A stretch of DNA of 64,000 nt from Theocolax elegans (Eukaryota; Arthropoda; Insecta; Hymenoptera; Cerocephalidae): NCBI GenBank assembly GCA_026168455.1, contig CM047426.1, forward strand, positions 70,032,916-70,096,915, read 5' to 3'. The notes under the pieces are model-generated. The model did no database searches. It was not told the origin of the DNA and worked only from the letters and a program-made list of their open reading frames with translations. The translations under genes were made by a program, and so were the position numbers. This document shows, piece after piece, positions 1 through 64,000 of this stretch. The first letter of the stretch is position 1. Each line of letters opens with the position of its first letter.

Positions 1-245
1 CACAAACAAAAAATTATCAAAATAAAGTCTTATAAGGCACTAAAATTAAATGGTGGCAAACCATATAGAAAAGAAGAAGAAAGATTTTAAAATGTGAATT
101 TTGAATCTATTGCTTGTTTACTTATTAGTTATATGATAAATGAATATTTATTATTAATGTTTGTTATCGGTAGTGCATATATACCCCATGTCTTCCTCGT
201 CGGAGTAGAGCTGTTTTTCAAAATTATTATATTATATCATTCATC
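1..245. other. AT-rich DNA, nothing recognised
   Basis: There is no coding sequence, RNA gene or repeat end that I recognise. This is the 5' flank of the hammerhead motif. If the ribozyme belongs to a retroelement, the element would have to extend through here or start left of the window. Confidence 0.4.
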
Positions 246-312
246 TGTATCTAGAGACAAGATGCCTGGATTCTACTGATGAGCCCACCAGGCATACTCA
301 GGGCGAAATACA
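246..312 (+). ncRNA. Type III hammerhead self-cleaving ribozyme motif
   Basis: All conserved core elements are present in order. Stem III is TGTAT (246-250) paired with ATACA (308-312). The cleavage nucleotide is C251 in an AUC (NUH) site. Stem I is TAGAG (252-256) with TTCTA (271-275), one G-U pair included. The core CTGATGA is 276-282. Stem II is GCCC (283-286) with GGGC (301-304), giving the canonical G-C first pair. GAAA is 305-308. Both ends leave through stem III, so the fold is type III. Loop I contains ATGCCTGG (262-269) and loop II contains its exact reverse complement CCAGGCAT (288-295), so the loops can form an 8-bp Watson-Crick contact. Predicted cleavage is between C251 and T252. 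In the family such motifs process RNAs of retroelements, retrozymes and satellites; the host element here is unknown. Confidence 0.88.
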
Positions 313-780
313 ATAATTTTTTTTCTATTGCTTTCTGTTTTGTTTAATTTTATACTCCAATCAATTAAATTTTTTATTTTTTCGACTTAGCTTGTCTTGG
401 TCTTTTTTCAAACACTCATCCAGTGAGGTTTTTCAAGTGACTGGTATTAATACAGTCCGCCTTACTGAGTTGTGAGGAATAGTCTTTGGCATGTGGAGAT
501 CAATGAAGAAAGATTTTGTTGAATCAAATGAAGTACGATTATTGAATGAAATAACGTTTTCTCAAATCAAGTAAATGATTTATTAGAATTAGCTGCTCTA
601 TTTAGTTAAGTAAAAAATATTAATTAATGAAGTTATCGAAATAAATATCTTGGTTTCATCAAATTAAATAAATCATTTATTCAATTCCAGGAGAAGAAAA
701 GCAGTTCATTTGGTGTACATAATCAAGAATGCTCAATTAAAAGGAAATTGGATATCAAAGGAAAATAAATTGAAAACAAT
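313..780. other. AT-rich DNA, nothing recognised
   Basis: This stretch starts with a T-rich run just after the ribozyme, then mixed sequence without a supported ORF or RNA gene. ATCAAAGGAAA at 754-764 recurs at 1009-1019 and may be a target duplication of the following SINE. Confidence 0.4.
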
Positions 781-13225: not shown

Positions 13226-14266
13226 CTATTTAATATTCATAATCTCATCCAATAAATGTTTATGTGTGTCAAACGGTAAAGGTTTTGTAAAAATGTCAGC
13301 TATTTGATCTTTGGATTTGATCCACTCTATTACAATCCACTTTCTCTTAACGCATTCTTTGACATAATGCTCTTTAACTTCAGTCATATGCCTCAACTTA
13401 TTACCGCCATTAGTCTCAGCACTTGCAGCAGCAGCTTTATTATCACACCAAAGCGTCATTGGCCAAAAAGATTCTGTTAGTATTAAAGTCAATGAATTTC
13501 TCATAGAAATCATTTCTTGACACGTCTCGCTCATCGCAACATATTCTGCTTGACAAGTAGATAATGACACATATGACTGTTTATGTGTACGCCAATTTAT
13601 CGAATCTCCGTACAGTTTAATTACATATCCGCACGTCGTTAGAGAATTCTTGCAATCAGCAAAACTCGCATCTGAATAAGCTTCAATATTATTCTTTTCA
13701 CCTAAGTATCGTAAGCTTAAATTAATTGTGCCTTTCAAATATCTAAAAACCCTCTTTACCATTTTCCAATCATCTTCAGTAGGGTTGATTTGATGCCTGC
13801 TTAACACGTTTACAGCATATGAAATATCTGGTCGAGTAGCTCCAGCCAAATATAACAAGCTACCTACAGCTTCTCTATATTTCGTAGTCTCACTGTTTAC
13901 AAATTTATAACTATATACATTGTCTCCATCATTCTCTCGCATCTTTCTGTTTCTGTTAGCTACTTGTGTTGTGATCATAGGTGTTCTTTGTGCATGTGAC
14001 TCATCAAAATTAAATCTTTTCAAGATTTTCTCCACATATTTTCCTTGGTTTAACTCTATAATTTTATTTTTCCTATCTCGTTTAATTAAAATGCCAAGAA
14101 ATTCTTTAGGTTCACCCATAACGTTCATTTCAAATTCTTCACTAAGTCTGATTTTTACTTCATTCATTTTATTATTATCATTACTTGCAAGAAGTATGTC
14201 ATCCACATACAAAAGCAAAATTAAAATTTTATTTTTATTTCGCCAAATAAACATACATGGTTCCAA
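13226..14266 (-). CDS. pol: Copia-B Pol C-terminal part: RT palm end and RNase H (truncated)
   Basis: The protein begins inside reverse transcriptase just before the catalytic LLYVDDILLA motif and continues through the FLGILI block, the EAVGSLLYLAGATRPDI block and a complete copia-type RNase H (SDASFADCKNSLTTCGYV, LSTCQAEYVAM, WCDNKAAAA, HMTEVKEHYVKE, KSKDQIADIFTKPLP). The nominal first codon is TTG and no ATG start makes sense, so this is the tail of a longer Pol. The roughly 250 residues that normally join integrase to YVDD, including the DVKTAF catalytic aspartate block, are absent. Its frame differs from the upstream ORF, which ends 11 bp before it. RNase H looks intact, but the RT cannot be active. 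Confidence 0.92.
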   Translation of the reverse strand: MEPCMFIWRNKNKILILLLYVDDILLASNDNNKMNEVKIRLSEEFEMNVMGEPKEFLGILIKRDRKNKIIELNQGKYVEKILKRFNFDESHAQRTPMITTQVANRNRKMRENDGDNVYSYKFVNSETTKYREAVGSLLYLAGATRPDISYAVNVLSRHQINPTEDDWKMVKRVFRYLKGTINLSLRYLGEKNNIEAYSDASFADCKNSLTTCGYVIKLYGDSINWRTHKQSYVSLSTCQAEYVAMSETCQEMISMRNSLTLILTESFWPMTLWCDNKAAAASAETNGGNKLRHMTEVKEHYVKECVKRKWIVIEWIKSKDQIADIFTKPLPFDTHKHLLDEIMNIK

Positions 14267-14277
14267 ATCGGAATTCC

Positions 14278-17200
14278 TTAAATTAAGACCAATTTTTCAT
14301 TAAATCGGGCATTTCTGCTTTCGTAATATTTTCCTTCATCTGGCTTTAGAAATTGGTAACCTGTAGGAGTGTAACCTACAAAAATAACTCGTCTTCCTTC
14401 ACATCTGAATTTTGGACCAATTTTCCTTTGGACCTTTATATATGCAACACATCCAAATCGTTTAATTTGATTTATGTCGAAGCTGTGATGAGAAGCAAAT
14501 TTTTCCAATGGAGTAATCATATTATTTGATTTATGTGGTGTACGATTATAAGCATAGACCGCAGCAGTCAAGGCTAAATCCCACATACTTTCAGGTAATC
14601 TTGAATCATACATATATGCTCTGATCTTCTTTTGTAAGGTTTGATTTAGGCGCTCAGAAACACCATTATGTTCAGGTGTGTCTGGACAGGCCAACTGTAG
14701 CTCTGCTCCTAATATCTTCAAAACCTCTACAGTATAACCTCCTGTATACTCTGTACCCTGATCAGTACGTAAATAACACATTTTTGCATTATAACCCAAA
14801 AGATTACGTGCACTTCTTACAAACATTTCGAGATAAAAACCAGTTTCGTCTTTAGATTTCATCGGGTAACACATCGTGAGTCTCGAAAAGTCATCAGTGA
14901 ATGTAGAAATAAATCTGTAACCTTTCGGATGCGAAGCTGGAGAGATTGGACCCATCAAATCTGAATGAATAATCTGCAATGGTGCAGTTGCTCTTCTTCG
15001 TGTTGATTTAAAGGGAAGTTTATTAAATTTCGAGATTTGGCATACATCACAATCGAGTAAAGACTCATCGAATATCGCATCATTTAATTGTTTATTTTCA
15101 GGAAATTTTCTCTGTAAAGCTTTTAGATATGCGACTGAGGCATGTCCAAAACGTACATGCCACAGCAAGGCTTTATTGTTGTCTAGGAACTTTTTATATG
15201 TACTTACAAATGGTGATTCTTTATCGGGGATTTCTGTAATTGGTAACTCATCGATATCATGGAATTGTCGATCCCATATTGTCGTGTCAAAGTTAGATTG
15301 TTCATACATATTTTCTTTCTTTTCTATCACACCTATTACCGTTTTGCTATTTAAATTCAAATTTTTCTCATCTCTCCCTCCGAAGTTTTCAATTTCGACC
15401 GATTCATTTGAAATTTGCATCTCATTTGTTTTAGGAATTTTAGTCTCATCAGTTTCGCTTACTTCATTATTTATTTTAGAGTTTTCTAATAGTTTTTCTT
15501 TGGCTACTACACTACGTGTAAAATGCTTTTTCACATCTGTACTCTTTTCAATTAAATTTGCAAATATTCGTTTATTAATTAATACAGAAGAATTGTCGTT
15601 AGTCTCATCGCATTTATTTGTTTCTAGTTCGATTACCCAGTAAGGTCTTTTATACACACCGGTAATAAACAACTCGTTTGATGTTGGATCAAAAATATCT
15701 ATTTTCTCATCGTCTAGATAAATTCCAAGACCCATCTCAGCAAATTTTCTTAGTGACAATAAATTTTCTGTAAGCGCGTCTGCATAAACTACTTTATCAA
15801 TATTAAATAATTTACCACTTTCTAACCGTATTTGAACATTACCCACGCCCTTAGTTTTAAGATCCGCTTTCGTATCATTATTAGCGCATTTTATTATACC
15901 CTCGTCATTCTCATCAAATGATTTAAAGATAATTTTTGATTTTGTCAAGTGTTCGGTTGCACCGGAATCTGCTAAAAATTCAGTTACAAACTGACCTCCG
16001 TTCGCGTCTGATTTATCATTAGTTAAAAACTCAGCATTTGCAGTGAATACATTTGTGTCAAAATTTTGCTTACCTTTATCATTATTTTTATTCGAGGAGT
16101 GACTATTCCCTTGTTGCTTCGCGTTATTGTTAGACTTGTCACCGTTTCCTCGTTCATTGCCATTATTTTTTCCACGTTTAAAGTTTTTGTAATTATTCGA
16201 CTTTTTGTTATTATAGTTGTTTCTCATCCGTTTAATTTTTCCATAATTTGAGTTCTCATCATTGTTTTTGGGTTTTAAATTTTTACTATTATGACTATTC
16301 GATCCACGTGAATAATTATTGTTTCTAAAGTACCTGTTATTTCCTCTTTGATCGGAATCTCTTCTGTAATTGCCAGAGTTGGTACAATCAGGAGCTTTGT
16401 GTCCAAATTTGTCGCATCGGTAGCATTTTAATCCTTTCCCTTTATTTGGACAGTTTGCTCCAATATGTCCAAAGTCATGACATTCATAGCACCGTCGAGT
16501 CTCTTGGGTTAGATTCGCAGCTCTCACATCAGTTTTGTTCCCATCCAATTGTTTCCGTGTTGCCTCATCCTGTATAACAATCAATTTTAATTGTTCATAG
16601 GAAACACCTTTATTATGAACATTTTTAGAGACATATTCGATTGTTTGAACTTGTGGTACTGAGACCATCACAGCATTGTAGAAGGCATCGCGTTTTTCAT
16701 TTTCAGTTAAAGGAATAGCTTCCGGAGAATTTTCGTAGTTTCTAATCACTTCTTCGAAACTTTCGCAAAATTCACCAGCAGTAGTTTTTCCAATAATATA
16801 TTGCATTGTATACAACTGTTTCCGTACAGAATGAGAAGTTAAGTTAATTTCACATCGTTTTATTTCTTTTAATTTATCTAAAATTTCTATTGGATCTTGA
16901 AGGTGTAATACCCTAGAGTGGTAATTTTGATCTAAATGATTTATTAAAATGTCGCGAACTTTATATTTGTTTTCAATTTTAGTTTTCTCATCTAAGTTAG
17001 ATTTTTCTACGCTCTCATCTATAACGTATAATAAACCACATGTTCTTAATTCAGATGATAAATAGTCGTAAAAATGTTCAAATTTTAAACTATTATTCAA
17101 TTTGTAATCGCGTCTAATTCCCGAATTTTTATTAACAATTTCAAATTTTAATGTTTCTTTCACATCTTCAATATTACAAATATTTTGTTCATTACTTTTA

Positions 17201-17993
17201 TTTGTTTTTGTAAATTTCAGTTTTTCTACCTGTTCTTTAATTATTTGCATATCTTTTCTTAAATTAGAAATTGGTGAATCAGAGTGTACCTGTGATTCCT
17301 CGTCTTCGTCTTCTGATCTCGTAGATTCATTTACGATTTGATCAAGTTGTTCCCATCTTTCAGACCACTCACTTCTTTGCCTTTTCAGATCGCTTTGCAA
17401 ATTATCCAGAAATTCCTTATGCTCTTTTCTCTCATCTTGCAACTCATCCGTAGCATAATTTATTTTCGTGTATATGTTTTTGATATGCTCAATCGAATTT
17501 TGGAAGCTGTTGACAGCTGTACCCAATTGACTCATGGTTTTATTACAGACAGATGTTAATTTCTGTATAGCTTCAGTTATTGCTGTTATTTTTCGATCAA
17601 TATCCAAATTTTTGTCAGCATCGCTATTTTCAACTTTGTTTATAGAATTATCATTTTTCAAATTCAATAAAGAAGATATGTATTCTTGTTTAAAATGAAC
17701 TTTGACGTTCTCAGTGACTTTAGGCTTTTCAATCGTGTTATCTCTTCTCAAGACATCGACATTTTTAAACATTTCACCTCCCTCTTCTTTATTGCCGGCC
17801 ACGTCTTTCTCCTCATTCACCTCTTCATTATTTTCTTTATCGTTTTCAATTTCATTATTTCCATTCGCATCAATTTTTGTTGTCGAGTCACTCCCTGGTA
17901 GAGTTGGCGTATAATATGAACATTGGTCTGTAGATTTGTCTTTCATCCAGTCGACCACACATTGCCACTCTTCGTCCGAAAACATTCTTTTCT
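14278..17993 (-). CDS. gag-pol: Copia-B Gag-protease-integrase polyprotein (exon 3)
   Basis: This single long frame (1235 codons from the internal ATG at 17985) encodes the capsid and processing/integration enzymes of a Copia element. In order: an acidic, coiled-coil-like N-terminal region (about residues 100-260), a Gag body, two CCHC zinc knuckles (CYECHDFGHIGANC and CYRCDKFGHKAPDC, about 495-530), an Asn/Lys/Gly-rich linker, an aspartic protease with DSGATEHL (about 670), an integrase with a zinc-binding HVRFGH...CDVC block, and catalytic D/D/E positions in HSDLMGP (about 1007), RTDQGTEY (about 1075) and HNGVSERLNQ (about 1110). The exon opens at a splice acceptor (TTTTCCACAG before 17993), and the frame is open from there, so the real start is probably in exon 1. 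It ends with a stop just past integrase, where the RT is deleted. Confidence 0.93.
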
Positions 17994-20149: not shown

Positions 20150-21286
20150 TGTAACAGGGTTATTCTCGTACGTCAGGAGGGTTATGTTCGTCCTGTACAT
20201 CTATTCAATGTACAGGAAATCAGTGCAATACCGAGGTCAGCTGTCTCACCGTACAGCCGACAAATCGGTGAAAATTACCTTTCGGGACGACCGGAGCTAG
20301 CCTCAAGCTCCGAACGACGACGTTGACCCTGTGTACAATGTGTGCACTTACTTAGTGCACACTTATCCTCCGATGATGCTCGTACTCGGCTACTCAGTTA
20401 AGTGTGTCGTGCTGAGTACAATGCACGACACCCGCGGGGCATGGCGGTATTCGCCTTTGGGATAGGAACTACTCGCGGGTTTAATGAATCGACACTCGCG
20501 ATTAAAAATGTCAGTATAATTTATTCTATATAAACAAAAATTAATAGGATACAGAAGTTGATAAATTATGCCGGGGCGAGCCAAGGCAATGCTAAACCTT
20601 GGCTCAATAACAGTTAAATAAGAAAATGTAAACAAACGTGGGCACATAAAATGTATACAGTGTGCGTGTGTGTGTGCGCCCGCCGCAAACTACGGTCCGA
20701 GACACGGCGTCTCGATATGTTCGCGGGAACGAGATTACACCAGGTATCGAGCACCTGGTTGAGCCGAAGACCTAGTATGGGCAAATTATTGCCGGAGTGT
20801 GGAGCACTCCGGCTTACCAAATGCGTGTCTACGCAATAGAGAGAGACACGGCGAGAGTATCCGGACTCTCGCCCGGGCGGTATGGTGCGTCGGGGTACCG
20901 CGCGTATCCCGATGCCGCTCGCGGATCGCGTCGTAATTTCGAAACGGCGCACGCCTGGCCAGGACTTACTTGTCTTTTCGACGTTGAAGCTTAGCACTCG
21001 CGGTGTCCGCCTTTTCTCGCTTTCGCTCTCTCGGACCCTCTCTCTCTCTCTCTCTCTCTCCTTCGCCACAGTTCGGAATCGCGGGGCCTTGATTGGTCTC
21101 ACTCTAGGTCGAGCTACGAACCGAACGGTGTTGCCGATCCCGTGTTGTTCGAGGTTCGAACGATACTGCCGGTGTGTCGTGCACACCGGCTCTCCGACGC
21201 GCTCGCGCATGCGCCTTACGCGTCTTCAACGGTAGACTCACGCGATCGGTACGATTTTCGACTCGCGTGAACCGTTTACCGTTACA
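20150..21286 (-). repeat. Gypsy-1 3' LTR
   Basis: It starts TGTAACAGGG and ends CCGTTACA on the plus strand. It is packed with short perfect inverted repeats with 7-10-bp stems, for example 20191-20217, 20340-20362, 20404-20431, 20578-20605, 20791-20813, 20850-20873 and 21168-21190, plus a (CT)n run near 21040-21060. ORFs of up to 198 codons here are low-complexity or antisense and are not genes. Confidence 0.95.
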
Positions 21287-21653: not shown

Positions 21654-24600
21654 TCACTGCCGCTTCGCTTGCGCGCGCGTCTTTCTACGGACTATCGACG
21701 ACTCTGATCTCCCGAGTACGGATTCGACGTCATTATTTTCTACACCGCGTTTCACTATGTTCTTCTCGTGGGGTCTCGCGACGGTCTTTGCTGATTTTCG
21801 CGGACGGCCGCGCTTTCGTGCTTTCGGCGTTTTGACTCTCGCAGGAGTCTGTTTTCGCACGCTGGTGTCACCCGCTATGACTCGCGCAGGAGTCCGCACG
21901 CGATCTGGTGACTGTACGCTCGCACGGGGCGGGTCGCGCGTTGCCCCTTCTCCCACGATGTCCCTCGGCGGATGTTCTTCTTCCTCGTCTGCGTCGAGAT
22001 CCGGTGAGATGCAGTGTTTAAGGTGTTCGGCGTGTGCCAGGTCGGTCACCTTACCGTCCTTATCCAACAACGTGTAAGTATTGGATCCTGGTTGGCCTAT
22101 GATGATGTACGGACCGGTCGCCTTCGGAGCCAGCTTAGCCGAAATACCCTGAGCTGCTGAGGACAGGACTCTGTTTTTCTTCCACACCATGTCTCCTACG
22201 GTGAAAGGTGTGTCCCTCCTTTTAGCGTTATAATAGCTTGCTTGCCGCTCATGTTGTTGGTCTGAGCGTGCGGCTGCAGACTCGTGTACTTCCCTGAGCT
22301 TTCGAAGTCGCTCTTGCCACAAGTTTATTTTATGGTGCTGCTCCTCTTCTATGCCAGTCTGTTCTTGGTTCCTCTTGATGGTACCGGGGGGCATAGGCTC
22401 TCGTCCGTAATTCAGCATTGCCGGAGTTGTACCCGTCGACTCGTGTACGGTGTTGTTCAGCGAGAATACAAGCTCCGGCAACTTCTCGTCCCAGGTATTG
22501 TGGTTTTCTTCGATGAAGGCCACAATCCTGGTTTTCAGCGTTCGGTTGACGCGTTCAACCGGATTCGCTTGGGGGAAATATGGCGGGGTGGTGGTATGAT
22601 GTATCCCCACCTCCTGTAGGTATTCGTCGACGGCCTTATTCTTGAATTCGGTACCGTTATCCGATAGGAATACCTCAGGAGTACCAAATCTTAGAACTAT
22701 TCTCTCTTTGAACTCCTTGAGAATGGTTCTCGCGTTGGCTTTGCGAATTGGTACACACTCCGCCCACCGGGTGAATAAATCCAAGAATACGAGGATGTAT
22801 TCGTACCCGCCCTTGCTCCTTACAAAGGGTCCGGTGATATCCCCTGCCACGACTTGCCAGGGACGCTCGACCGTGCGTTTTCCCATCAGTCCTGCAGGTG
22901 GTCGCTGATCCACCTTGCATTGTTGACAGACGAGACAGCGACGCACGTAGTCCTTCACGTCGGCGTAATAACCTGGCCAGTAGTAATACTTAGCCAGACT
23001 GGCAAACGTCTTCTCACGTCCAGCATGGCCAGACGTAGGAGAGTCGTGGCTTTCCTCGAGGACCGCTTTTCGGTGTTCCTTTGGAATCACTAACTTCCAC
23101 GCATCCTCGTCTCCGAGTGTTTCATCGATTAACTCGTTCGGCTTGTGGAAGTATAGTCGTCCTCCGACGCACTTCCAACGAGGGAAATCTCTTGGACTAG
23201 ATTTTACTCGTTTCAGCCAATTCTGAAACCACTCGTCTTGGGACTCTTCTACCCAAGATATTGCGTTGATGGCGAGGGCCTCCTCCTCGCTCATCCGTGA
23301 TAGCGCGTCGGGTACGTAGTTCAGGGCGCCTTTTCGATGCTCCACATCAAAGCTGTGTCCCTGCAACTCTAACGCCCATCGCGCTAACCTACCCGTTGGG
23401 CTGTGTAAGCTACGCAGCCAACGTAAGCTACTGTGGTCGGTTATGACGCGGAAATGATAGCCTTCGATATAAGGTCTATATTTCCCAATCGCCCATATAA
23501 CCGCCAGGCACTCTCGTTCCGTAACGCTATAATTGCGTTCGGCCTGGTTTAACGTCCTACTGGCGAATTCCAGTACTCTCTCTTCTCCATTAATCACCTG
23601 GAGAAGTACTGCGCCAATGCCAGTGTCGCTTGCATCCGTCTGTATAACGAACTGCACGTCGAACTCCGGCCTCGCTAGGACGGGAGCAGTTGCGATCAGC
23701 GCCTTAATCTGATCGAATGCCTGTTGCTGCTCCTCGAGCCATTCAAACTTACGATCTTTCTTGGTAAGCCTGGTTAGCGGCTCGGCCAAGGTAGCGAAGT
23801 CTCGTAAGAATTTCCGGTACCACGAACCCATACCAAGGAATCTTCTAAGTTGTTTTAGATTCTTTGGCGCCGGATAATTAATGATCGGCTCGATTTTCTC
23901 GGGGTCTGGCCTGATTCCATCGCGATTCACCAGCACTCCGAGATATTTTACCTCAGTACGTCCAAACACACTTTTATCCCGATTCACCGTGAGACTAGCC
24001 TCGTTAATTCTCTTCAGGACATACTTTAGCCACTTTTCGTGTTCCTCGAAGGTCTCTGTGGCGATGATTATATCATCGAGGTACGAAAATGCATAGGGCT
24101 CGAGCTCAGGCCCTATGATTTTGTCCACTAACCTTTGGAACGTGGCTCCCGCCTGGGATAGGCCATAAGGCATCCTTTTAAATTGGAATAAGCCTAGCCC
24201 AGGTACTGTGAACGCGGTAATAGCCGCTGACTCCGGTCTTAGCGGTATCTGGTGGTACGCGCTACTCAAGTCTAGCGTGCTGATGTACCTCGCGTTCTTG
24301 AGCTTCCGTAGTATGCCGTCCATGTTAGGCAGCGGGTAAGCATCGGTTTTCGACACTGCATTGACCTTCCGATAGTCAATACAGAACCGATACTTCCCGT
24401 TAGGTTTACGGACCATTACTACGGGGCTCGACCATCCACTGGTTGATGGCTCGATCACCCCTGCGTCGAGCATCTCTTTAACCTGGGCGTGCATCTCCTC
24501 CTCTATTCGCTTAGAGACGGGATAATATTTCTGCTTGATCGGCCGCGTCGCACCCACGTCGATCGCGTGCTCAATCAAGGAGGTACACCCCAACGGCCTC

Positions 24601-25382
24601 CCCGTTGTACCCAGGTATCGGTCAGCCAGTGTATGCAGTCTTTCTTGCTCCTCTGGCAATAAGTCTGCAAGTCCTATCGATGCTATCTCGAATGCATCGA
24701 TTCGCGATATGCTCGCTACTTCCAGATCTACGGACTTGTTGGCCGCTTTGATCCAAAGTTTATTCTCGTTTGGATCCAAAACTGCACCAAAACCACGAAT
24801 GAAGTCCGCTCCGACGTAACAGTCGATTTGATCGTCCGGAAGTACGGCTACGCGAATATCTCGCTTTATCCCGGCAACCTCGAAAGGCAGGTCTACGTAA
24901 CCAGCGATTGACACCGTCTGGTTTCCTGGCACTTTTGCTTTCCTTCCGTTGCTCGGGATGAGTGGACAGCCGCAGGCCGTGGCCAATTGTAGGCCAATCG
25001 AGCCCATTACCGTGCGCGATGCTCCTGTGTCGAACAAGGCGCGTACGCGGTAGCCGGCAATGCCCACTTGGACCCACCAACGAGTTTCTTTTTCACTCGG
25101 AGGGTCTTCTCCTCCAGCCCTATCATCCAGATCTCCAGTAGCGGCCGCTATCTGGTGTTGATCCGACTTTTCCGTCGATCTCACAGAATTCGGGCTGAGG
25201 CAGCCGCTATCTTTCTCAGACTCGGCTGATATCGTCGGCATTCCCGACGACTCTTTTGCTGCCGAGTTCTCCTCACAGCGCTCGGCTGTAGTTGGGATAT
25301 CTGTTCGGGTCTTACGCGGGGCAGGAACGGGAACGACCCTTTTCAACCGCTCCTGTTTGCGTTTCCCGAACAGTCCGGACAA
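21654..25382 (-). CDS. pol: Gypsy-1 Pol (protease, RT, RNase H, integrase)
   Basis: This is an uninterrupted Pol of about 1242 residues. Domains in order: aspartic protease with LFDTGASRTVMG (about 118), reverse transcriptase with YPLPNMD, LDLSSAYHQIPL and catalytic YLDDIIIA (about 435), RNase H with QTDASDTGIGAVL (about 582), ERECLAVIWAI and TDHSSLRWL, and an integrase with an HHCC zinc-binding region (HDSPTSGHAGREK to CLVCQQCK) and catalytic D/D/E in VAGDITGP (about 847), LSDNGTEF (about 906) and NPVERVNRTL (about 942). A GPY/F-type module (ATGPYIIIGQPGSNTYTL) follows. The C-terminus has KRGRPRK (about 1192), an AT-hook-like motif. The first codon of the frame is TTG with no ATG, consistent with expression only by -1 frameshift from Gag. 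Confidence 0.97.
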   Translation of the reverse strand: MSGLFGKRKQERLKRVVPVPAPRKTRTDIPTTAERCEENSAAKESSGMPTISAESEKDSGCLSPNSVRSTEKSDQHQIAAATGDLDDRAGGEDPPSEKETRWWVQVGIAGYRVRALFDTGASRTVMGSIGLQLATACGCPLIPSNGRKAKVPGNQTVSIAGYVDLPFEVAGIKRDIRVAVLPDDQIDCYVGADFIRGFGAVLDPNENKLWIKAANKSVDLEVASISRIDAFEIASIGLADLLPEEQERLHTLADRYLGTTGRPLGCTSLIEHAIDVGATRPIKQKYYPVSKRIEEEMHAQVKEMLDAGVIEPSTSGWSSPVVMVRKPNGKYRFCIDYRKVNAVSKTDAYPLPNMDGILRKLKNARYISTLDLSSAYHQIPLRPESAAITAFTVPGLGLFQFKRMPYGLSQAGATFQRLVDKIIGPELEPYAFSYLDDIIIATETFEEHEKWLKYVLKRINEASLTVNRDKSVFGRTEVKYLGVLVNRDGIRPDPEKIEPIINYPAPKNLKQLRRFLGMGSWYRKFLRDFATLAEPLTRLTKKDRKFEWLEEQQQAFDQIKALIATAPVLARPEFDVQFVIQTDASDTGIGAVLLQVINGEERVLEFASRTLNQAERNYSVTERECLAVIWAIGKYRPYIEGYHFRVITDHSSLRWLRSLHSPTGRLARWALELQGHSFDVEHRKGALNYVPDALSRMSEEEALAINAISWVEESQDEWFQNWLKRVKSSPRDFPRWKCVGGRLYFHKPNELIDETLGDEDAWKLVIPKEHRKAVLEESHDSPTSGHAGREKTFASLAKYYYWPGYYADVKDYVRRCLVCQQCKVDQRPPAGLMGKRTVERPWQVVAGDITGPFVRSKGGYEYILVFLDLFTRWAECVPIRKANARTILKEFKERIVLRFGTPEVFLSDNGTEFKNKAVDEYLQEVGIHHTTTPPYFPQANPVERVNRTLKTRIVAFIEENHNTWDEKLPELVFSLNNTVHESTGTTPAMLNYGREPMPPGTIKRNQEQTGIEEEQHHKINLWQERLRKLREVHESAAARSDQQHERQASYYNAKRRDTPFTVGDMVWKKNRVLSSAAQGISAKLAPKATGPYIIIGQPGSNTYTLLDKDGKVTDLAHAEHLKHCISPDLDADEEEEHPPRDIVGEGATRDPPRASVQSPDRVRTPARVIAGDTSVRKQTPARVKTPKARKRGRPRKSAKTVARPHEKNIVKRGVENNDVESVLGRSESSIVRRKTRAQAKRQ
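25343..25382 (-). promoter_or_regulatory. Gag-Pol overlap with -1 frameshift heptamer
   Basis: Pol is in the -1 frame relative to Gag over this 40-nt overlap. The minus strand carries GGGAAAC at 25367-25361, placed as G GGA AAC in the Gag frame, a canonical X XXY YYZ slippery site. The Gag stop follows 16 nt later. I did not establish a downstream pseudoknot. Confidence 0.88.
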
Positions 25383-27163
25383 TCTGCGCGCTTATACCCT
25401 AGCCGTCCACAACCAAAGCATTTCAGTGGTTGTGTGGCTTGCGGTCTTGCGCTCACGATCTGATTGTCTTTTTCCACCTTCGATCCGCCGTACGTCCTTT
25501 CGGCGGAACCCTTCGCATTCTTCGTCCGGTTTGGTTCCCTCGGTTTACCAATTCCGCTCCGGGATGTGGTCATTGAAAGGACGAATTCTCTCATCTTCTC
25601 TTCCAGAACTTTGGCCAGGGTTTTCGCCAAGTCCTCTGGCGGATTCTTCTTAGTCTGCAGATTTGGTGCTGTCGACTGCACCGCTGCAATCTTCGTCTTG
25701 GCCCTTCTTTCCTCCTTCGGTTTATAAGCCGACTCGGGGATTAGGGCAGTCTCGGGTGGTGGAGGGTGTCTATACGCTTTCTGTCCCTCCAGCGTAAGTT
25801 CGGCTTCGACAGCAAGATCAAGAAGAGTATGGATTGAATCGCAATCCGTCCTGCGCACCAAATTCTGTATCTCGGGGCGCAGGTTGCCGTGCAGTGTATC
25901 TAACTGCTGCTCGATCCTTGGGATTGGATCGAGTCTTCTTATCATGTGCACTAAACACGTAATATAGTCCCGTGTTTTCTCGCCGGGTCCTTGATAGCGA
26001 GAATTTATTTCGGCAATCAACCTCTTCTGAAACCGCCTATTTGTTCCGAACCAGTGACGAGCTTCTTTTTGGAATTCGGACCACGTCGACCACGTATCTC
26101 TTTCGTTTTTGAACCAGAGTGCTGCAACGCCTTTGAATAACTCTGGCAGTGAGCTTAGCAATTCGGATTCTGAAAGATTGGCCAGAATCCGACATTCCTC
26201 GACTCGTTCGAGAAATGAGTCTATGCTCTGGTCGCCATCTGCTGAGAACTGTAGTCCCCATTTCCGGACAATTTGACCGACGTCTCTCAGTGACTGTCCT
26301 GCACTTCTCTGCCAGGTGCTGTTCTCGGTCCTGGTACCACTCGTATTTCCAAGTCTTTCCTGACCTTGGAAGTTCCCCCCCTCCCAGGCTTGGCCGACTC
26401 TCCTTGCGAGTGGTGCTGGGGGGTCAGGTTGTGGTAATTCGGTTGTATTGTCCAGGTAATGGTACGTCATTGTGTCCTGGAATCCTACTTGCTGTCGTTG
26501 GCTCCGGACTTCGTGTCGTGGCTGGTCCAGTCTAGTGCTTGTTAAAATAGGCTGAGCTTGCGCAGCCGTTAGCGCATTTACTTTTTCAGTTAATTGCTTA
26601 ACTGTGTCCGACATTCCTTGCATAAAATTTGCGAATTCGAGTGGGATTTCGAATGATCCTCCGTCTGTTGCAGTGAGTCTTATTCTGCTTGAATTTTTAT
26701 CATCGTTTGTAATACTGTCGGCAGCTTTGTCATTCGTTGATGTTGATTCCGTGGTTTCTTGCAATATTGCCGTGGTTTCATTGTCTTTGAGGTGTTGAAC
26801 TCTTCTACGACTTGTTTCCATATTTTCTTTAACTTTTTCGTCGTTGTTAAGAGTTAATAATGGATGGCTTGTGTTGTCGTCAATTGTCGAGTTCTCCCAC
26901 GGGTGTTCTGCCGAGCTATATTTTGTGATGAAATTTTGCCTGAGTTCTTCCCGATGGTACCAGACGGTGATTTCATCCTGCTCAGGTTCTTCAACGAAAT
27001 CCCTTGGCTCGTAATCTCCTAGGAGCCATTTTGTCAGACGACTTAATTTGTCAAATTTATTGCCTGTATCTTTAAGTGACAGGTCGTTAAGATATTGACA
27101 AATATCTTTGTCTCTATAAAACAAACACCAGTCTTCGATCTTCTGTTGTGTCGAACACGCCAT
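25343..27163 (-). CDS. gag: Gypsy-1 Gag
   Basis: This Gag of 606 residues forms the virus-like particle and binds the RNA. The N-terminal third is hydrophilic. The middle (about 300-470) contains a retrotransposon Gag/capsid-like region (WFKNERDTWSTWSEF, YQGPGEKTRDYITCLVHMIR). The C-terminus carries one CCHC zinc knuckle, CFGCGRLGYKRADC, in which the usual histidine position is tyrosine (C-x2-C-x4-Y-x4-C). The start is the ATG at 27163, the only ATG opening this frame. Its 3' end overlaps pol by 40 nt. Confidence 0.92.
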   Translation of the reverse strand: MACSTQQKIEDWCLFYRDKDICQYLNDLSLKDTGNKFDKLSRLTKWLLGDYEPRDFVEEPEQDEITVWYHREELRQNFITKYSSAEHPWENSTIDDNTSHPLLTLNNDEKVKENMETSRRRVQHLKDNETTAILQETTESTSTNDKAADSITNDDKNSSRIRLTATDGGSFEIPLEFANFMQGMSDTVKQLTEKVNALTAAQAQPILTSTRLDQPRHEVRSQRQQVGFQDTMTYHYLDNTTELPQPDPPAPLARRVGQAWEGGNFQGQERLGNTSGTRTENSTWQRSAGQSLRDVGQIVRKWGLQFSADGDQSIDSFLERVEECRILANLSESELLSSLPELFKGVAALWFKNERDTWSTWSEFQKEARHWFGTNRRFQKRLIAEINSRYQGPGEKTRDYITCLVHMIRRLDPIPRIEQQLDTLHGNLRPEIQNLVRRTDCDSIHTLLDLAVEAELTLEGQKAYRHPPPPETALIPESAYKPKEERRAKTKIAAVQSTAPNLQTKKNPPEDLAKTLAKVLEEKMREFVLSMTTSRSGIGKPREPNRTKNAKGSAERTYGGSKVEKDNQIVSARPQATQPLKCFGCGRLGYKRADCPDCSGNANRSG

Positions 27164-28702: not shown

Positions 28703-29839
28703 TGTAACAGGGTTATTCTCGTACGTCAGGAGGGTTATGTTCGTCCTGTACATCTATTCAATGTACAGGAAATCAGTGCAATACCGAGGTCAGCTGTCTC
28801 ACCGTACAGCCGACAAATCGGTGAAAATTACCTTTCGGGACGACCGGAGCTAGCCTCAAGCTCCGAACGACGACGTTGACCCTGTGTACAATGTGTGCAC
28901 TTACTTAGTGCACACTTATCCTCCGATGATGCTCGTACTCGGCTACTCAGTTAAGTGTGTCGTGCTGAGTACAATGCACGACACCCGCGGGGCATGGCGG
29001 TATTCGCCTTTGGGATAGGAACTACTCGCGGGTTTAATGAATCGACACTCGCGATTAAAAATGTCAGTATAATTTATTCTATATAAACAAAAATTAATAG
29101 GATACAGAAGTTGATAAATTATGCCGGGGCGAGCCAAGGCAATGCTAAACCTTGGCTCAATAACAGTTAAATAAGAAAATGTAAACAAACGTGGGCACAT
29201 AAAATGTATACAGTGTGCGTGTGTGTGTGCGCCCGCCGCAAACTACGGTCCGAGACACGGCGTCTCGATATGTTCGCGGGAACGAGATTACACCAGGTAT
29301 CGAGCACCTGGTTGAGCCGAAGACCTAGTATGGGCAAATTATTGCCGGAGTGTGGAGCACTCCGGCTTACCAAATGCGTGTCTACGCAATAGAGAGAGAC
29401 ACGGCGAGAGTATCCGGACTCTCGCCCGGGCGGTATGGTGCGTCGGGGTACCGCGCGTATCCCGATGCCGCTCGCGGATCGCGTCGTAATTTCGAAACGG
29501 CGCACGCCTGGCCAGGACTTACTTGTCTTTTCGACGTTGAAGCTTAGCACTCGCGGTGTCCGCCTTTTCTCGCTTTCGCTCTCTCGGACCCTCTCTCTCT
29601 CTCTCTCTCTCTCCTTCGCCACAGTTCGGAATCGCGGGGCCTTGATTGGTCTCACTCTAGGTCGAGCTACGAACCGAACGGTGTTGCCGATCCCGTGTTG
29701 TTCGAGGTTCGAACGATACTGCCGGTGTGTCGTGCACACCGGCTCTCCGACGCGCTCGCGCATGCGCCTTACGCGTCTTCAACGGTAGACTCACGCGATC
29801 GGTACGATTTTCGACTCGCGTGAACCGTTTACCGTTACA
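28703..29839 (-). repeat. Gypsy-1 5' LTR
   Basis: It is 1137 bp and appears identical to the 3' LTR, including all ORF shadows and hairpins. Confidence 0.95.
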
Positions 29840-47483: not shown

Positions 47484-49016
47484 TTGTCTACGTCACGCCA
47501 ATTATTAAATCGCGCTGAACGTAATTACATGACAACGGAAAGAGAATGCTTGGCTCTCATACGGGCTATTAAGAGATTGAGACCATACATTGAGACCTAT
47601 CGATTCACGGCTGTGACAGACCATAGTGCTCTCAAATGGTTCAAAAATCTCAGAGAGCCGTCGGGTAGGTTGGCACGATGGATACTTGAAATGCAGCGAT
47701 GGGACTTTGAAATAGTGCATAAGAAAGGAGCCTTGCACTATGTCCCGGACGCGCTTTCTCGTGCCGTCAACCCAGACCCCGACAAAGAAGAGATTGCCTC
47801 ATTCGAAGTAATTACAGACCCATGGTATATTGCTAGATTAAACGATGTACGCTCATGCCCTCAGAAATTTCCGGAGTGGAAAATTGAGGATGATATGCTA
47901 TATCGTTTTACAAGTGATAAACTCTTGGACTCTGTAACAGAACGAGAAGAAGGCTGGCGCCTTGTTCTACCCTTAGAGCAGAGGAACCGAGTCTTAGTAG
48001 ATTCTCATTTCCACCCATCAATGGGTCATATGGGAGTCGAAAAGACTTACGAACGTGTTGCAAGAGACTATTATTGGCCAGGTATCTACCACGATACCCA
48101 CCAATTTGTTTTACAGTGTCTGATCTGTAAGAGCTATACGACGTCTCAAGCAGGTCCTCAAGGCTTGATGGGTAAATGTAACATTGAGACACCCTGGGCT
48201 GTTGTGGCAGCAGACGTAATGGAGCTTCCACGTAGTAAAAGTCAATACAAATACATCATAGTATTTCAAGACTTGTTTACAAGGTGGATAGAGCTCAAAC
48301 CATTACGTACGGCGACCGGTAAGTCGGTGTCGAAAGCATTCGAGGAACTCGTAGTCTTCCGTTGGGAAACACCAGATTTCCTAATAACGGATAATGGAAC
48401 TGAGTTCGTCAACGGCATCATGTCGCGAATGCTGGAGGAATATGGCATAAAACATGTCAGAACCCCTCCTTACCGACCACAAGCCAACCCGGTGGAGAGA
48501 ACAAATAGAACGTTAAAAACGATGATTGCGACGTTTGTGGATTCGGATCATCGTGGGTTGGACACACACTTGCACGAATTTCGCCATGCAATAAACACGG
48601 CAATGCAGTCAAGCATCAAAGTCTCACCCGCGTTCTTAAACTTCGGGCGTCATCCACAACCTGTGAAGAGTCTCCGCAGGGAAGTGGAAAAACAGGAATT
48701 TAAGATCCTGGACAATCCCGAAGTATGGCTAGATCGTCTTAAAAGACTTGATGCTCTACGCGACTTGGTCAAGAAATACATTGACGAGGAGCAAAGACGT
48801 CAAGAAAAGACCTACAACAGAAACAGACGTATTGCCTCGTTTCAGGTAGGAGATCTAGTCATGAGGAAGTGCCGAACGCTTTCCCAAGGTGCGAAGGGCA
48901 TATCTGCTAAACTGGCACCAAAGTATGACGGACCCTTCGAAGTTAAAGAAGTACTATCTCCAGTAATTCTGAGACTAGAAGAGTCCGGTCGGAAACGGAC
49001 CGAGGTACATATCTGA
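47484..49016 (+). CDS. pol: Gypsy-2 pol, intact RNase H-integrase part
   Basis: The open segment of 510 codons continues the broken RT. It has RNase H blocks (TTERECLALIRAIKRLRPYI, VTDHSALKWF, HYVPDALSR), then an integrase with an HHCC zinc-binding module (HPSMGHMGVEKTY to CLIC), catalytic D/D/E in AADVMELP, ITDNGTEF and NPVERTNRTL, and a GPY/F-like end (YDGPFEVKEVLSPVILRL). The nominal start is not a real start codon context; the piece is the C-terminal half of Pol. Sequence and domain order match the Gypsy-1 Pol but are clearly diverged, so it is a different family. Confidence 0.9.
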   Translation: MSTSRQLLNRAERNYMTTERECLALIRAIKRLRPYIETYRFTAVTDHSALKWFKNLREPSGRLARWILEMQRWDFEIVHKKGALHYVPDALSRAVNPDPDKEEIASFEVITDPWYIARLNDVRSCPQKFPEWKIEDDMLYRFTSDKLLDSVTEREEGWRLVLPLEQRNRVLVDSHFHPSMGHMGVEKTYERVARDYYWPGIYHDTHQFVLQCLICKSYTTSQAGPQGLMGKCNIETPWAVVAADVMELPRSKSQYKYIIVFQDLFTRWIELKPLRTATGKSVSKAFEELVVFRWETPDFLITDNGTEFVNGIMSRMLEEYGIKHVRTPPYRPQANPVERTNRTLKTMIATFVDSDHRGLDTHLHEFRHAINTAMQSSIKVSPAFLNFGRHPQPVKSLRREVEKQEFKILDNPEVWLDRLKRLDALRDLVKKYIDEEQRRQEKTYNRNRRIASFQVGDLVMRKCRTLSQGAKGISAKLAPKYDGPFEVKEVLSPVILRLEESGRKRTEVHI

Positions 49017-51636: not shown

Positions 51637-51944
51637 TTGTCTAGCATCGCAGATATACATCGAGAAGTAAATAGCAAATACATAACTTATTTTAACAAAT
51701 TTTATATTCTTTTTATAACAGTGTTGTGTAGCTAAACCGAAAATTATTTTTAGTATGATATACATAAAAATATTTTTTCTCGGAAGGCTGTCGCGATTGA
51801 TTGTCGTCACGTAGAACCTGCAAGGCGAGACAGTCTCGGCGCGCCGTTCAGTTTGTCACGCTCGCAGATATCCATCAAGAACTAAAACGAAAATACATTA
51901 ATTATTGTAACAAATTTTATAAATTTTTTATACCAGTGTTTGTG

Positions 51945-52720
51945 TAGCTAAACCTAAAATTATTTTTAGTATGATATACACGAAAAATACTTTTTTCGGA
52001 AGGCTGTGGCAATTGATTATCGTCACGTAGAACCTGCAAAGCGAGACAGTCTCGGCGCGTCGTTCAGATTGTCTCGCCTCGCAGATATACATCGAGAACT
52101 AAAAAGCGAATACATAAATTATTGTAACAAATTTTATATTCTTTTTATAACAGTGTTTGTATAGATAAAATAAAAATTATTTTTAGTAAGATATACACAC
52201 AATAAAACTTTGCTCGGAACGCAGTGGTGATTGATTTTTGTCGCGTAGAACCTACGAGACGAGACACTTTCGGCGCGTCGTTCAGATTGTCTCGCCTCCA
52301 GATATGCATAGAGAAGTAACAAGCAAATACATAATATATTCTAACAAATTTTATATTCTTTTTATAAGCGTGTTTGTATAGATAATATCAAAGTTATTTT
52401 TAGTAAGATATACACACAATAATACTTTGCTCGGAAGGCAGTGGTGAATGATTTTTGTCGCGTTGAACCTACGAGGCGAGACACGTTCGGCGCGTCGTTC
52501 AGATTGTCTCGCCTCGCAGATATCCATCGAGAACTAAAAAGCAAATACATTAATTATTGTAACAAATTTTATAAAGTTTTTATACCAGTGTTTGTGTAGA
52601 TAAATCAAAAATTATTTTTAGTATGATATACACAAAAATTACTTTTTTCGGACGACTGTGGCGATTGATTATTGTCGGGTAGAACCTACGAGGCGAGACA
52701 ATTTCGGCGCGTCGTTCAGA
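51945..52720. repeat. Satellite segment duplicated 4775 bp away (copy 1)
   Basis: It is nearly identical, including private variants (GTATAGATAAAATAAAAATT, TATAAGCGTGTTTG, TTGTCGGGTAG), to about 56720-57495. The offset of 4775 bp is 22 monomers. Confidence 0.8.
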
Positions 52721-55700
52721 TTGTCTCGCCTCGCAGATATCCATCGAGAACTAAAAAGCGAATACATAAATTATTGTAACAAATTTTATATTCTTTTTAT
52801 AACAGTGTTGTGTAGCTAAACCGAAAATTATTTTTAGTATGATATACACGAAAAATACTTTTTTCGGAAGGCTGTGGCAATTGATTATCGTCACGTAGAA
52901 CCTGCAAGCGAGACAGTCTCGGCGCGTCGTTCAGATTGTCTCGCCTCGCAGATATACATCGAGAACTAAAAAGCAAATACATTAATTATTGTAACAAATT
53001 TTATAAATTTTTTATACCAGTGTTTGTGTAGCTAAACCGAAAATTATTTTTAGTAAGATATACACACATAAAACTTTGCTCGGAACGCAGTGGTGATTGA
53101 TTTTTGTCGCGTAGAACCTACGAGACGAGACACTTTCGGCGCGTCGTTCAGATTGTCTCGCCTCGCAGATATCCATCGAGAACTAAAAAGCGAATACATA
53201 AATTATTGTAACAAATTTTATAAATTTTTTATACCAGTGTTTGTGTAGATAAATCAAAAATTATTTTTAGTATGATATACACGAAAAATACTTTTTTCGG
53301 AAGGCTGTGGCAATTGATTATCGTCACGTAGAACCTGCAAGGCGAGACAGTCTCGGCGCGTCGTTCAGATTGTCTCGCCTCGCAGATATACATCGAGAAG
53401 TAAATAGCAAATACATAACTTATTTTAACAAATTTTATATTCTTTTTATAACAGTGTTTGTATAGATAAAATAAAAATTATTTTTAGTAAGATATACACA
53501 CAATAAAACTTTGCTCGGAACGCAGTGGTGATTGATTTTTGTCGCGTAGAACCTACGAGGCGAGACAATTTCGGCGCGTCGTTCAGATTGTCTCGCCTCG
53601 CAGATATCCATCGAGAACTAAAAAGCAAATACATTAATTATTGTAACAAATTTTATAAATTTTTTATACCAGTGTTTGTGTAGCTAAACCGAAAATTATT
53701 TTTAGTAAGATATACACACAATAAAACTTTGCTCGGAACGCAGTGGTGATTGATTTTTGTCGCGTAGAACCTACGAGACGAGACACTTTCGGCGCGTCGT
53801 TCAGATTGTCTCGCCTCGCAGATATCCATCGAGAACTAAAAAGCGAATACATAAATTATTGTAACAAATTTTATAAATTTTTTATACCAGTGTTTGTGTA
53901 GATAAATCAAAAATTATTTTTAGTAAGATATACACACAATAAAACTTTGCTCGGAACGCAGTGGTGATTGATTTTTGTCGCGTAGAACCTACGAGACGAG
54001 ACACTTTCGGCGCGTCGTTCAGATTGTCTCGCCTCGCAGATATCCATCGAGAACTAAAAAGCGAATACATAAATTATTGTAACAAATTTTATAAATTTTT
54101 TATACCAGTGTTTGTGTAGCTAAACCGAAAATTATTTTTAGTAAGATATACACACAATAAAACTTTGCTCGGAACGCAGTGGTGATTGATTTTTGTCGCG
54201 TAGAACCTACGAGACGAGACACTTTCGGCGCGTCGTTCAGATTGTCTCGCCTCGCAGATATCCATCGAGAACTAAAAAGCGAATACATAAATTATTGTAA
54301 CAAATTTTATAAATTTTTTATACCAGTGTTTGTGTAGATAAATCAAAAATTATTTTTAGTAAGATATACACACATAAAACTTTGCTCGGAACGCAGTGGT
54401 GATTGATTTTTGTCGCGTAGAACCTACGAGACGAGACACTTTCGGCGCGTCGTTCAGATTGTCTCGCCTCGCAGATATCCATCGAGAACTAAAAAGCAAA
54501 TACATAACTTATTTTAACAAATTTTATATTCTTTTTATAACAGTGTTGTGTAGCTAAACCGAAAATTATTTTTAGTATGATATACACGAAAAATACTTTT
54601 TTCGGAAGGCTGTGGCAATTGATTATCGTCACGTAGAACCTGCAAGGCGAGACAGTCTCGGCGCGCCGTTCAGTTTGTCACGCTCGCAGATATCCATCGA
54701 GAACTAAAAAGCAAATACATTAATTATTGTAACAAATTTTATAAATTTTTTATACCAGTGTTTGTGTAGCTAAACCGAAAATTATTTTTAGTAAGATATA
54801 CACACAATAAAACTTTGCTCGGAACGCAGTGGTGATTGATTTTTGTCGCGTAGAACCTACGAGACGAGACACTTTCGGCGCGTCGTTCAGATTGTCTCGC
54901 CTCGCAGATATCCATCGAGAACTAAAAAGCGAATACATAAATTATTGTAACAAATTTTATAAATTTTTTATACCAGTGTTTGTGTAGCTAAACCGAAAAT
55001 TATTTTTAGTATGATATACACGAAAAATACTTTTTTCGGAAGGCTGTGGCAATTGATTATCGTCACGTAGAACCTGCAAGGCGAGACAGTCTCGGCGCGC
55101 CGTTCAGTTTGTCACGCTCGCAGATATCCATCGAGAACTAAAAAGCGAATACATAAATTATTGTAACAAATTTTATAAATTTTTTATACCAGTGTTTGTG
55201 TAGCTAAACCTAAAATTATTTTTAGTAAGATATACACACATAAAACTTTGCTCGGAACGCAGTGGTGATTGATTTTTGTCGCGTAGAACCTACGAGGCGA
55301 GACAATTTCGGCGCGTCGTTCAGATTGTCTCGCCTCGCAGATATCCATCGAGAACTAAAAAGCAAATACATTAATTATTGTAACAAATTTTATAAATTTT
55401 TTATACCAGTGTTTGTGTAGCTAAACCGAAAATTATTTTTAGTAAGATATACACACAATAAAACTTTGCTCGGAACGCAGTGGTGATTGATTTTTGTCGC
55501 GTAGAACCTACGAGACGAGACACTTTCGGCGCGTCGTTCAGATTGTCTCGCCTCGCAGATATCCATCGAGAACTAAAAAGCGAATACATAAATTATTGTA
55601 ACAAATTTTATAAATTTTTTATACCAGTGTTTGTGTAGATAAATCAAAAATTATTTTTAGTAAGATATACACACAATAAAACTTTGCTCGGAACGCAGTG

Positions 55701-56719
55701 GTGATTGATTTTTGTCGCGTAGAACCTACGAGACGAGACACTTTCGGCGCGTCGTTCAGATTGTCTCGCCTCGCAGATATCCATCGAGAACTAAAAAGCG
55801 AATACATAAATTATTGTAACAAATTTTATAAATTTTTTATACCAGTGTTTGTGTAGCTAAACCGAAAATTATTTTTAGTAAGATATACACACATAAAACT
55901 TTGCTCGGAACGCAGTGGTGATTGATTTTTGTCGCGTAGAACCTACGAGACGAGACACTTTCGGCGCGTCGTTCAGATTGTCTCGCCTCGCAGATATCCA
56001 TCGAGAACTAAAAAGCGAATACATAAATTATTGTAACAAATTTTATAAAGTTTTTATACCAGTGTTTGTGTAGATAAATCAAAAATTATTTTTAGTAAGA
56101 TATACACACATAAAACTTTGCTCGGAACGCAGTGGTGATTGATTTTTGTCGCGTAGAACCTACGAGACGAGACACTTTCGGCGCGTCGTTCAGATTGTCT
56201 CGCCTCGCAGATATCCATCGAGAACTAAAAAGCAAATACATAACTTATTTTAACAAATTTTATATTCTTTTTATAACAGTGTTGTGTAGCTAAACCGAAA
56301 ATTATTTTTAGTATGATATACACGAAAAATACTTTTTTCGGAAGGCTGTGGCAATTGATTATCGTCACGTAGAACCTGCAAGGCGAGACAGTCTCGGCGC
56401 GCCGTTCAGTTTGTCACGCTCGCAGATATCCATCGAGAACTAAAAAGCAAATACATTAATTATTGTAACAAATTTTATAAATTTTTTATACCAGTGTTTG
56501 TGTAGCTAAACCGAAAATTATTTTTAGTAAGATATACACACAATAATACTTTGCTCGGAAGGCAGTGGTGAATGATTTTTGTCGCGTAGAACCTACGAGA
56601 CGAGACACTTTCGGCGCGTCGTTCAGATTGTCTCGCCTCGCAGATATCCATCGAGAACTAAAAAGCAAATACATAACTTATTTTAACAAATTTTATATTC
56701 TTTTTATAACAGTGTTGTG

Positions 56720-63540: not shown

Positions 63541-64000
63541 GTTCAGATAGTCTCGCCTCGCAGATATCCATTGAGAACTAAAAAGCAAATACATAATTTA
63601 TTGTAACCTATTTCATATTATTATATAAGAGTGCGTGGTAGATAAACCATAAATTATTTTTAGTATGATATACACAAAAGATTCTTTGTTCGGAAGGCAG
63701 TGGCGATTGATTATTGTCACGTAGAGCCTGCATGGCGAGACAGTCTCGGCGCGTCGTCCAGATTGTCTCGCCGCGCAGATATACATCGAGAAGTAAAAAG
63801 CAAATACATAACTTATTTTTACAAATTTTGTATTCTTTTTGTAAGTGTTTGTGTAGCTAAACCTAAAATTATTTTTAGTATGATATACACGAAAAATACT
63901 TTTTTCGGAAGGCTGTGGCGATTGATTATCGTCACGTAGAACCTGCAAGGCGAGACAGTCTCGGCGCGTCGTTCAGATTGTCTCGCCTCGCAGATATACA

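Follow-up and report, generated by a model that had tools for sequence, protein, structure and literature searches.

Introduction

Metazoan non-LTR retrozymes, as described in PMC7229834, carry type I hammerhead ribozymes (HHRs) within repeats of 150-450 bp. The same account names Penelope-like elements (PLEs), on indirect grounds, as a strong candidate for the mobiliser of animal retrozymes; the word "inverted" is absent from its main text. Plant retrozymes are described there as elements with type III HHRs, LTRs and 4-bp target duplications. It is from plants that the type III form is best known. PLE insertions are reported as head-to-head pseudo-LTRs with an optional tail on one arm, with target duplications of 8-10 bp in several insertions and none in others (PMC3846280), and the HHRs of PLEs as minimal type I motifs (PMC7761336). 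Reverse transcription of a PLE starts at two internal sites that match the tail, and extension takes place on both target strands (PMC11167929).

Type III HHRs with Watson-Crick pairing between loops have been reported from Drosophila pseudoobscura, other dipterans and termites (PMC7936874). The termite examples are presented in that report as isolated motifs without recognizable ORFs, no element being named, and it records no type III HHR from hymenopterans, hemipterans or a cockroach. Pseudoknots are predicted, according to PMC3088659, in about 40% of HHRs and in all HHR types. Insect elements with type III HHRs are mentioned in PMC7761336 as work in preparation by the PMC7936874 group, so such elements may be known to others. 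Among the open-access PubMed Central papers found, mostly as titles and abstracts, none mentions a type III HHR carried by an animal element, and at that depth we found no element that joins such an HHR to a retrozyme-like unit and Penelope-type insertion.

The locus examined here lies in a 64,000-nucleotide stretch of the Theocolax elegans genome (the window) and shares features with each of these systems. Like the metazoan non-LTR retrozymes of PMC7229834, it belongs to a small, AT-rich, non-coding HHR unit with tandem copies, target duplications longer than 4 bp and co-occurring PLEs; unlike them, as they are described there, it has a type III HHR, a unit of 552 bp, head-to-head twins and two fixed 3' ends. 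As in plant retrozymes, by the same description, a type III HHR lies in a non-coding element some hundreds of bp long, but we saw no LTR pair, the duplications are 9-15 rather than 4 bp, the sequence is AT-rich and the ends are of Penelope type. The inverted head-to-head repeats, the tail at one arm, the two start sites and the target duplications are like those reported for PLEs (PMC11167929, PMC3846280); in contrast to PLEs, no ORF was found in the unit, the HHR is of type III and the tail is about 66 nt long rather than 30-40. The dipteran and termite HHRs of PMC7936874 have the type III topology, the pairing between the loops of helices I and II and the insect setting in common with ours. 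Their helix I, as described there, has an extra hairpin of about 20 nt that is absent here, where 8 bp join two 14-nt terminal loops.

Results

A predicted type III hammerhead ribozyme

By sequence, positions 246-312 of the forward strand are a complete type III HHR, an assignment drawn from the core, the stems, a motif descriptor and the Rfam type III alignment, and self-cleavage is predicted between C251 and T252. Stem III (246-249/309-312, 4 pairs) is open, while stems I and II are closed by loops. U250 follows the 5' strand of stem III, giving the NUH triplet A-U-C, and the cut site C251|T252 was read from the window sequence. Stem I (252-256/271-275; TAGAG/TTCTA) has 5 pairs, the last of which is G.U in the window copy and G-C in the majority of copies. 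The core element CTGATGA (276-282) is followed by stem II (283-286/301-304; GCCC/GGGC, 4 pairs, the first G-C) and by GAAA (305-308), all on the forward strand. The first-pass annotation had listed every conserved core position, stems I to III and the G-C first pair of stem II, and all were found again in the sequence.

Counting the fifth pair of stem I, loops I (257-270) and II (287-300) are 14 nt each. Loop I contains ATGCCTGG (262-269, forward strand), the exact complement of CCAGGCAT in loop II (288-295, forward strand), so the perfect 8-nt complement noted earlier is confirmed. It had been called rare by chance; shuffling the two loops 200,000 times agrees with this, with a complementary run of 8 nt or more in 90 cases.

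A strict type III descriptor matched once in the window (both strands) and not at all in 9.6 Mb of simulated first-order Markov sequence, also scanned on both strands. At gathering thresholds, Rfam gave no match anywhere in the window. By E-value on positions 1-1000, the type III model RF00008 aligned over its whole length at 29.8 bits (E 0.00042), short of its cut-off of 48.5 bits. The covariance check thus upheld the type and placement of the motif and not the curated threshold. Eight other loci yielded 10 Rfam matches up to E 0.1, all to RF00008 and all below the same cut-off (29.7-34.2 bits). A model built from the element copies scored the window site at 120 bits, by construction; its three weak matches (E 0.5) in the satellite of the window were taken as chance.

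Folding, conservation and covariation

When 246-312 is folded for minimum energy, the two halves of the 8-nt complement pair into a nested hairpin (-14.8 kcal/mol) instead of the hammerhead. In the window copy the three HHR stems without the loop contact amount to -4.1 kcal/mol and the 8-bp contact alone to -12.8 kcal/mol; in the majority sequence of the copies the nested hairpin has -20.3 and the hammerhead -6.9 kcal/mol. Because the two loop halves pair with each other in the favoured fold, the loop contact may form first or may compete with the HHR fold. The segment folds no better than its own shuffles (z -0.59).

Among 44 distinct HHR rows (from 50), the core was kept in 39, the exact 8-nt complement in 17 and both in 15. 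The majority sequence retains all core positions and the three stems, and in the majority of copies the complement can be extended by three pairs across a one-base bulge, with 92.5% of cells paired. Covariation was scored on 34 aligned rows, 31 of them distinct, drawn from the 50 rows plus one locus repeated; this set was picked by hand, with several damaged or second copies omitted. The core was present in 27/31, the exact complement in 12/31 and both in 10/31. None of the 24 pairs of the HHR stems and loop contact was changed on both sides in the 31 distinct rows, and 95.2% of cells were paired, a result that speaks neither for nor against the fold since the copies are too alike for compensatory changes to be detected. 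The contact between loops I and II proposed in the first-pass annotation has its complement in place, yet no doubly changed pair accompanies it, and because of this lack of covariation we regard the kissing contact as no more than plausible.

Divergence in 37 copies was 3.5% inside the HHR compared to 5.7% outside, and the HHR window ranked 27th lowest of 295, only mildly more conserved than its flanks. Of 32 subfamily-level sites, 3 fell in the HHR, where about 6 were expected (p 0.11). The idea that the HHR is under strong purifying selection finds no support in these values.

A multi-copy repeat with a 552-bp unit

The genome from which the window comes (658 Mb, 1277 contigs) was searched for copies. 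Positions 200-400 of the window gave at least 44 matches (best 40 of 1347 candidates scored) at 85-100% identity, the window included. Searching with a different part of the unit gave at least 45 matches (best 40 of 1994 candidates scored) that were 94-100% identical to the query copy, and some element copies are therefore young. Mapping of 20 wider loci defined a repeat unit of 552 bp in tandem and inverted arrangements. The reference unit is L045:2998-3549, in which the HHR core lies at unit position 309 and cleavage is predicted after 284. At three loci (L045, L049 and L050) units follow one another head to tail with no ORF between them. The suspicion of an unrecognised element at the left edge of the window was thus well founded: the HHR lies in a multi-copy 552-bp repeat, and the window copy has a 13-bp target duplication. 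A small non-coding unit with an HHR, tandem arrangement, many copies and target duplications, the hallmarks of a retrozyme, were all found.

A crude motif scan of loci L001-L050 and the window returned one doubtful CxxC match (L048) and no GIY-YIG motif. Element copies at L031, L032, L033, L034 and L044 lie within local tandem duplications of 1.8-3.2 kb. These tandem units were considered as element interiors; their frames differ between loci, and they were taken for local duplications.

The copy in the window

The whole copy spans 85-504, with both arms homologous to the 552-bp unit and with a flanking duplication. The 13-bp sequence GAAGAAAGATTTT is repeated exactly at 76-88 on the left and 505-517 on the right and occurs on the forward strand of the 64 kb at 76 and 505 only; a 13-nt match was obtained in 5 of 3000 random 20x20-base pairs from the window. 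The terminal TTTT of the element (85-88) overlaps the left duplication, placing the left edge at 85 or 89. A short inverted left arm (85-150, reverse strand) has a tail-class 3' end that points left, as seen when the reverse complement of 61-175 was aligned to the unit. About 20 bp are missing inside its tail relative to the reference unit, and because of this gap the end was left unclassed by the end-class script. The right arm (151-504, forward strand) bears the HHR and covers unit positions from about 184 to 545; its 3' end stops within the 3' motif GTGGAGATCAATAAA, short of the proximal site described below. The window copy is a partly decayed head-to-head twin.

Insertion ends and head-to-head twins

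The outer 3' ends of many copies fall at two fixed sites, about 66 nt apart. We collected 64 distinct downstream junctions, a set in which some loci are local duplicates: 24 fell at the proximal site (unit 8-18), 24 at the tail site (70-84) and 9 read into the next unit, while 4 stopped short (the window copy included) and 3 lay between the sites (one of these cut by N). The tail region folded no better than shuffles in L045 (z 1.41) and in L055 (z 0.18), and slightly better in L049 (z -1.37).

Head-to-head twins were found by script in 26 rows, 14 with both ends classed and 12 with an unclassed end. Thirteen of the 14 fully classed twins were mixed, with one proximal and one tail end; one had two proximal ends and none had two tail ends. 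This excess of mixed twins has a p of 0.0009 against equal, independent use of the two sites. The arms of twins are unequal in length and their inner junctions are variable. When the flanks of 17 insertions were compared, 4 shared 13-15 nt, 4 shared 9-10 nt (one of low complexity) and 9 shared less; random flank pairs of equal size shared 9 nt in 15/2000 cases and 13 nt in 0/2000. Twins with two outward 3' ends inside a target duplication argue that both target strands were primed and that the products met at variable points.

Six of 52 arms were longer than one unit (564, 591, 596, 644, 690 and 734 bp). Many arms run through the HHR cleavage site, with a frequency that is uninformative in loci picked with an HHR-containing query. 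Arms that exceed one unit and pass through the cleavage site require a multimeric or circular template. Head-to-head arms, an optional tail between two fixed 3' ends and target duplication are the features expected of a Penelope-like insertion and all were present; by analogy with described PLEs, the twin ends together with the fixed sites are a PLE signature.

Resident Penelope-like elements

A search of the genome for GIY-YIG domains gave at least 98 matches (best 150 of 1713 candidates scored), with open frames of up to 884 aa. The 566-aa frame at L057 scored 29 bits for GIY-YIG, above the cut-off, and 22.7 bits for RVT_1, below the cut-off of 29.6. PLE family A (L055, L056, L068 and L069) carries a short type I HHR, read from its motif, and ends at ATATCAAA or about 30 nt further. 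By eye, the family A twins L055, L056 and L069 each have one end of each kind (3/3). L059/L060 of family D, taken as a twin from their places, also have mixed ends, making 4/4 mixed PLE twins in all. These four PLE twins share the proximal and tail pattern of the ribozyme element.

An Rfam scan of 8 PLE loci up to E 1 recognised none of their short type I HHRs, and its one microRNA match was taken as chance. The family D HHR motif is degenerate. In L057, L058 and L059 (about 2312-2350, element strand) and in L065, stem II and GAAACGTC are kept, and the site reads CTTGAAAAG in place of CTGATGA, although L057 and L059 have almost identical frames. On the minus strand of L068, a 51-bp tandem repeat lies in frame from about 2250, beside a PLE copy.

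No PLE frame joined to the 552-bp unit was found among the best-scored candidates. Among the best candidates, compared by eye, about 12 kb separate the closest pair of a unit and a GIY-YIG place (C6, 9.63/9.65 Mb). When 20 PLE loci were compared with the unit by blast, the matches listed were AT-rich only.

A 3' motif shared with PLE family D

The sequence immediately preceding the proximal end is GTGGAGATCAATAAA in the element, GTGGCGATCAATAAA in family D and GTGGTGATCAATAAA in L065. Within 716,984 positions on two strands, a set of overlapping loci selected because they matched the element or PLEs, GTGGNGATCAATAAA occurs 70 times: 65 times in element copies (59 by script and 6 by reading flanks) and 5 times in PLEs. 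These 5 occurrences, from 20 PLE loci, are all at the 3' ends of family D or D'. With ACRARCAATAG on its far side, the motif was seen in 22 places beyond the PLE loci and, within them, in L058 and L060. The 20 PLE loci offer 128,238 positions; 6 of these match the 3' motif of the element at 15 or more of 21 letters, 5 of them being D or D' ends. Shuffled queries usually reach 15/21 somewhere in these loci, and 18/21 in 1 of 400. At 18/21 or better, 31 of the 552 windows of the unit match the PLE loci, mostly elsewhere and in AT-rich sequence.

The stem around the proximal start site is GCUUGU/ACAAGC in the element and GUUCGU/ACGAAC in family D, so that 2 of 6 pairs are changed on both sides and none is broken, in a comparison of two families with no control. 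Aligned without gaps, the 67-nt 3' region is only weakly like family D, reaching 36/67 in the PLE loci; shuffled queries averaged 36.7, and the match is not above chance. A gapped alignment of the 3' end to the PLE loci was rejected as AT-rich noise, its query having omitted part of the motif. The likeness at the 3' end is read as a short, putative shared binding site, rather than as a sign that the entire 3' end descends from a recent common ancestor.

Discussion

The reading that we think probable is a non-autonomous, retrozyme-like element with a type III HHR that is copied by PLE machinery. In this account, RNA of a non-autonomous retroelement whose unit is 552 nt long would be processed at the HHR. 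A genomic copy would give rise to a tandem-unit RNA or a circle, as the arms longer than one unit suggest, and the type III HHR would cut this RNA to unit length and may circularise it, helped by the loop I-loop II contact. A resident PLE would then supply an enzyme that binds a stem-loop at about unit positions 530 to 30 and cuts both target strands, and on each strand reverse transcription would begin from one of two internal start sites separated by about 66 nt. We observe the two end classes and propose the enzyme. The two cDNAs would meet at variable points to leave the head-to-head twins with outward 3' ends that are observed, often within an observed target duplication of 9-15 bp. Insertion of a PLE in vitro did not need HHR cleavage (PMC11167929), which counts against this reading. 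So do the lack, among the best-scored candidates, of a PLE frame joined to the unit, the weak likeness to family D, the HHR stems that show no covariation and only mild conservation, and the competing minimum-energy fold.

A more specific form of it, which we offer tentatively and as one that could well turn out wrong, is that the family represents a third kind of retrozyme: an animal type III HHR with a kissing contact of 8 bp (up to 11 bp) would produce 552-nt RNA circles, to be copied in trans by a resident PLE that recognises the shared 3' stem-loop, with one start site used per target strand.

Other readings must account for the same copies. An autonomous PLE with its own type III HHR might have the unit as its pseudo-LTR, the copies being solo or 5'-truncated remnants. 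The PLE-like architecture of the copies would fit this, and the unit and PLE searches cover the best-scored candidates only; we nevertheless judge it unlikely, given the units that run head to tail with no ORF between them in L045, L049 and L050, the short type I motifs in those PLE loci that have a readable HHR core and, among the matches listed, a blast likeness between 20 PLE loci and the unit that is confined to AT-rich sequence and no GIY-YIG place within about 12 kb of a unit. A DNA transposon of the foldback or MITE kind, with long inverted repeats and a hammerhead-like sequence by accident, would likewise have inverted outer ends and target duplications. It is very hard to reconcile with twin arms of unequal length, variable inner junctions and two alternating fixed outer sites, or with arms longer than one unit, and we give it almost no weight; unequal arms, two fixed sites and overlong arms indicate reverse transcription rather than cut and paste.

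The remaining alternative concerns the ribozyme and not its host. The 8-nt complement could be a hairpin with another role in the cycle, such as protein binding or a switch, the hammerhead being a fossil or inactive. That the nested hairpin is the minimum-energy fold of the majority sequence (-20.3 vs -6.9 kcal/mol) would be as expected, as would HHR stems that lack covariation support. Against this, 39/44 distinct copies retain the core, and the majority sequence has the core and all three stems. The two readings are also compatible, as the 8 pairs of the hairpin are those of the kissing contact; a hairpin in place of a working ribozyme seems to us rather improbable.

The HHR itself adds a member, one whose loop contact is long, to a class already known. 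The first-pass annotation was right about its type and its Watson-Crick complement, and less so in holding such a motif unusual for an insect, as insect type III HHRs with loop pairing were already published. The host element, as far as we searched, is apparently undescribed in the open-access literature found, and insect type III HHRs, reported as isolated motifs in termites (PMC7936874), here gain one. On the question of what mobilises animal retrozymes, the family adds evidence at the level of sequence: an element with a ribozyme has ends of Penelope type, and it has a short 3' motif in common with a PLE of the same genome. Since the ends were mixed in 13/14 classed element twins and in 4/4 PLE twins, our results suggest that PLEs use one of their two start sites on each target strand. 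This one-site-per-strand pattern is in tension with the published assay, in which the start site showed no apparent difference between strands (PMC11167929).

Other features of the window

At 788-990 a tRNA-Met-like sequence (ARAGORN; Rfam tRNA 22.9 bits, below the cut-off) is followed by an A-rich end, with a second copy in L005; this is probably a tRNA-derived SINE. A long imperfect inverted repeat was noted by eye at 1875-2220 and 2540-2840. Polyprotein frames judged by reading to be Copia-like and Gypsy-like are present at 13226-17985 and 21654-27163 on the reverse strand and at 47484-49016 on the forward strand. An identical 198-aa frame occurs at 20614-21210 and 29167-29763, and the two probably mark the LTR pair of the 21654-27163 polyprotein element. 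A 12-kb satellite array with a period of 217 or 433 bp occupies 51637-63997.
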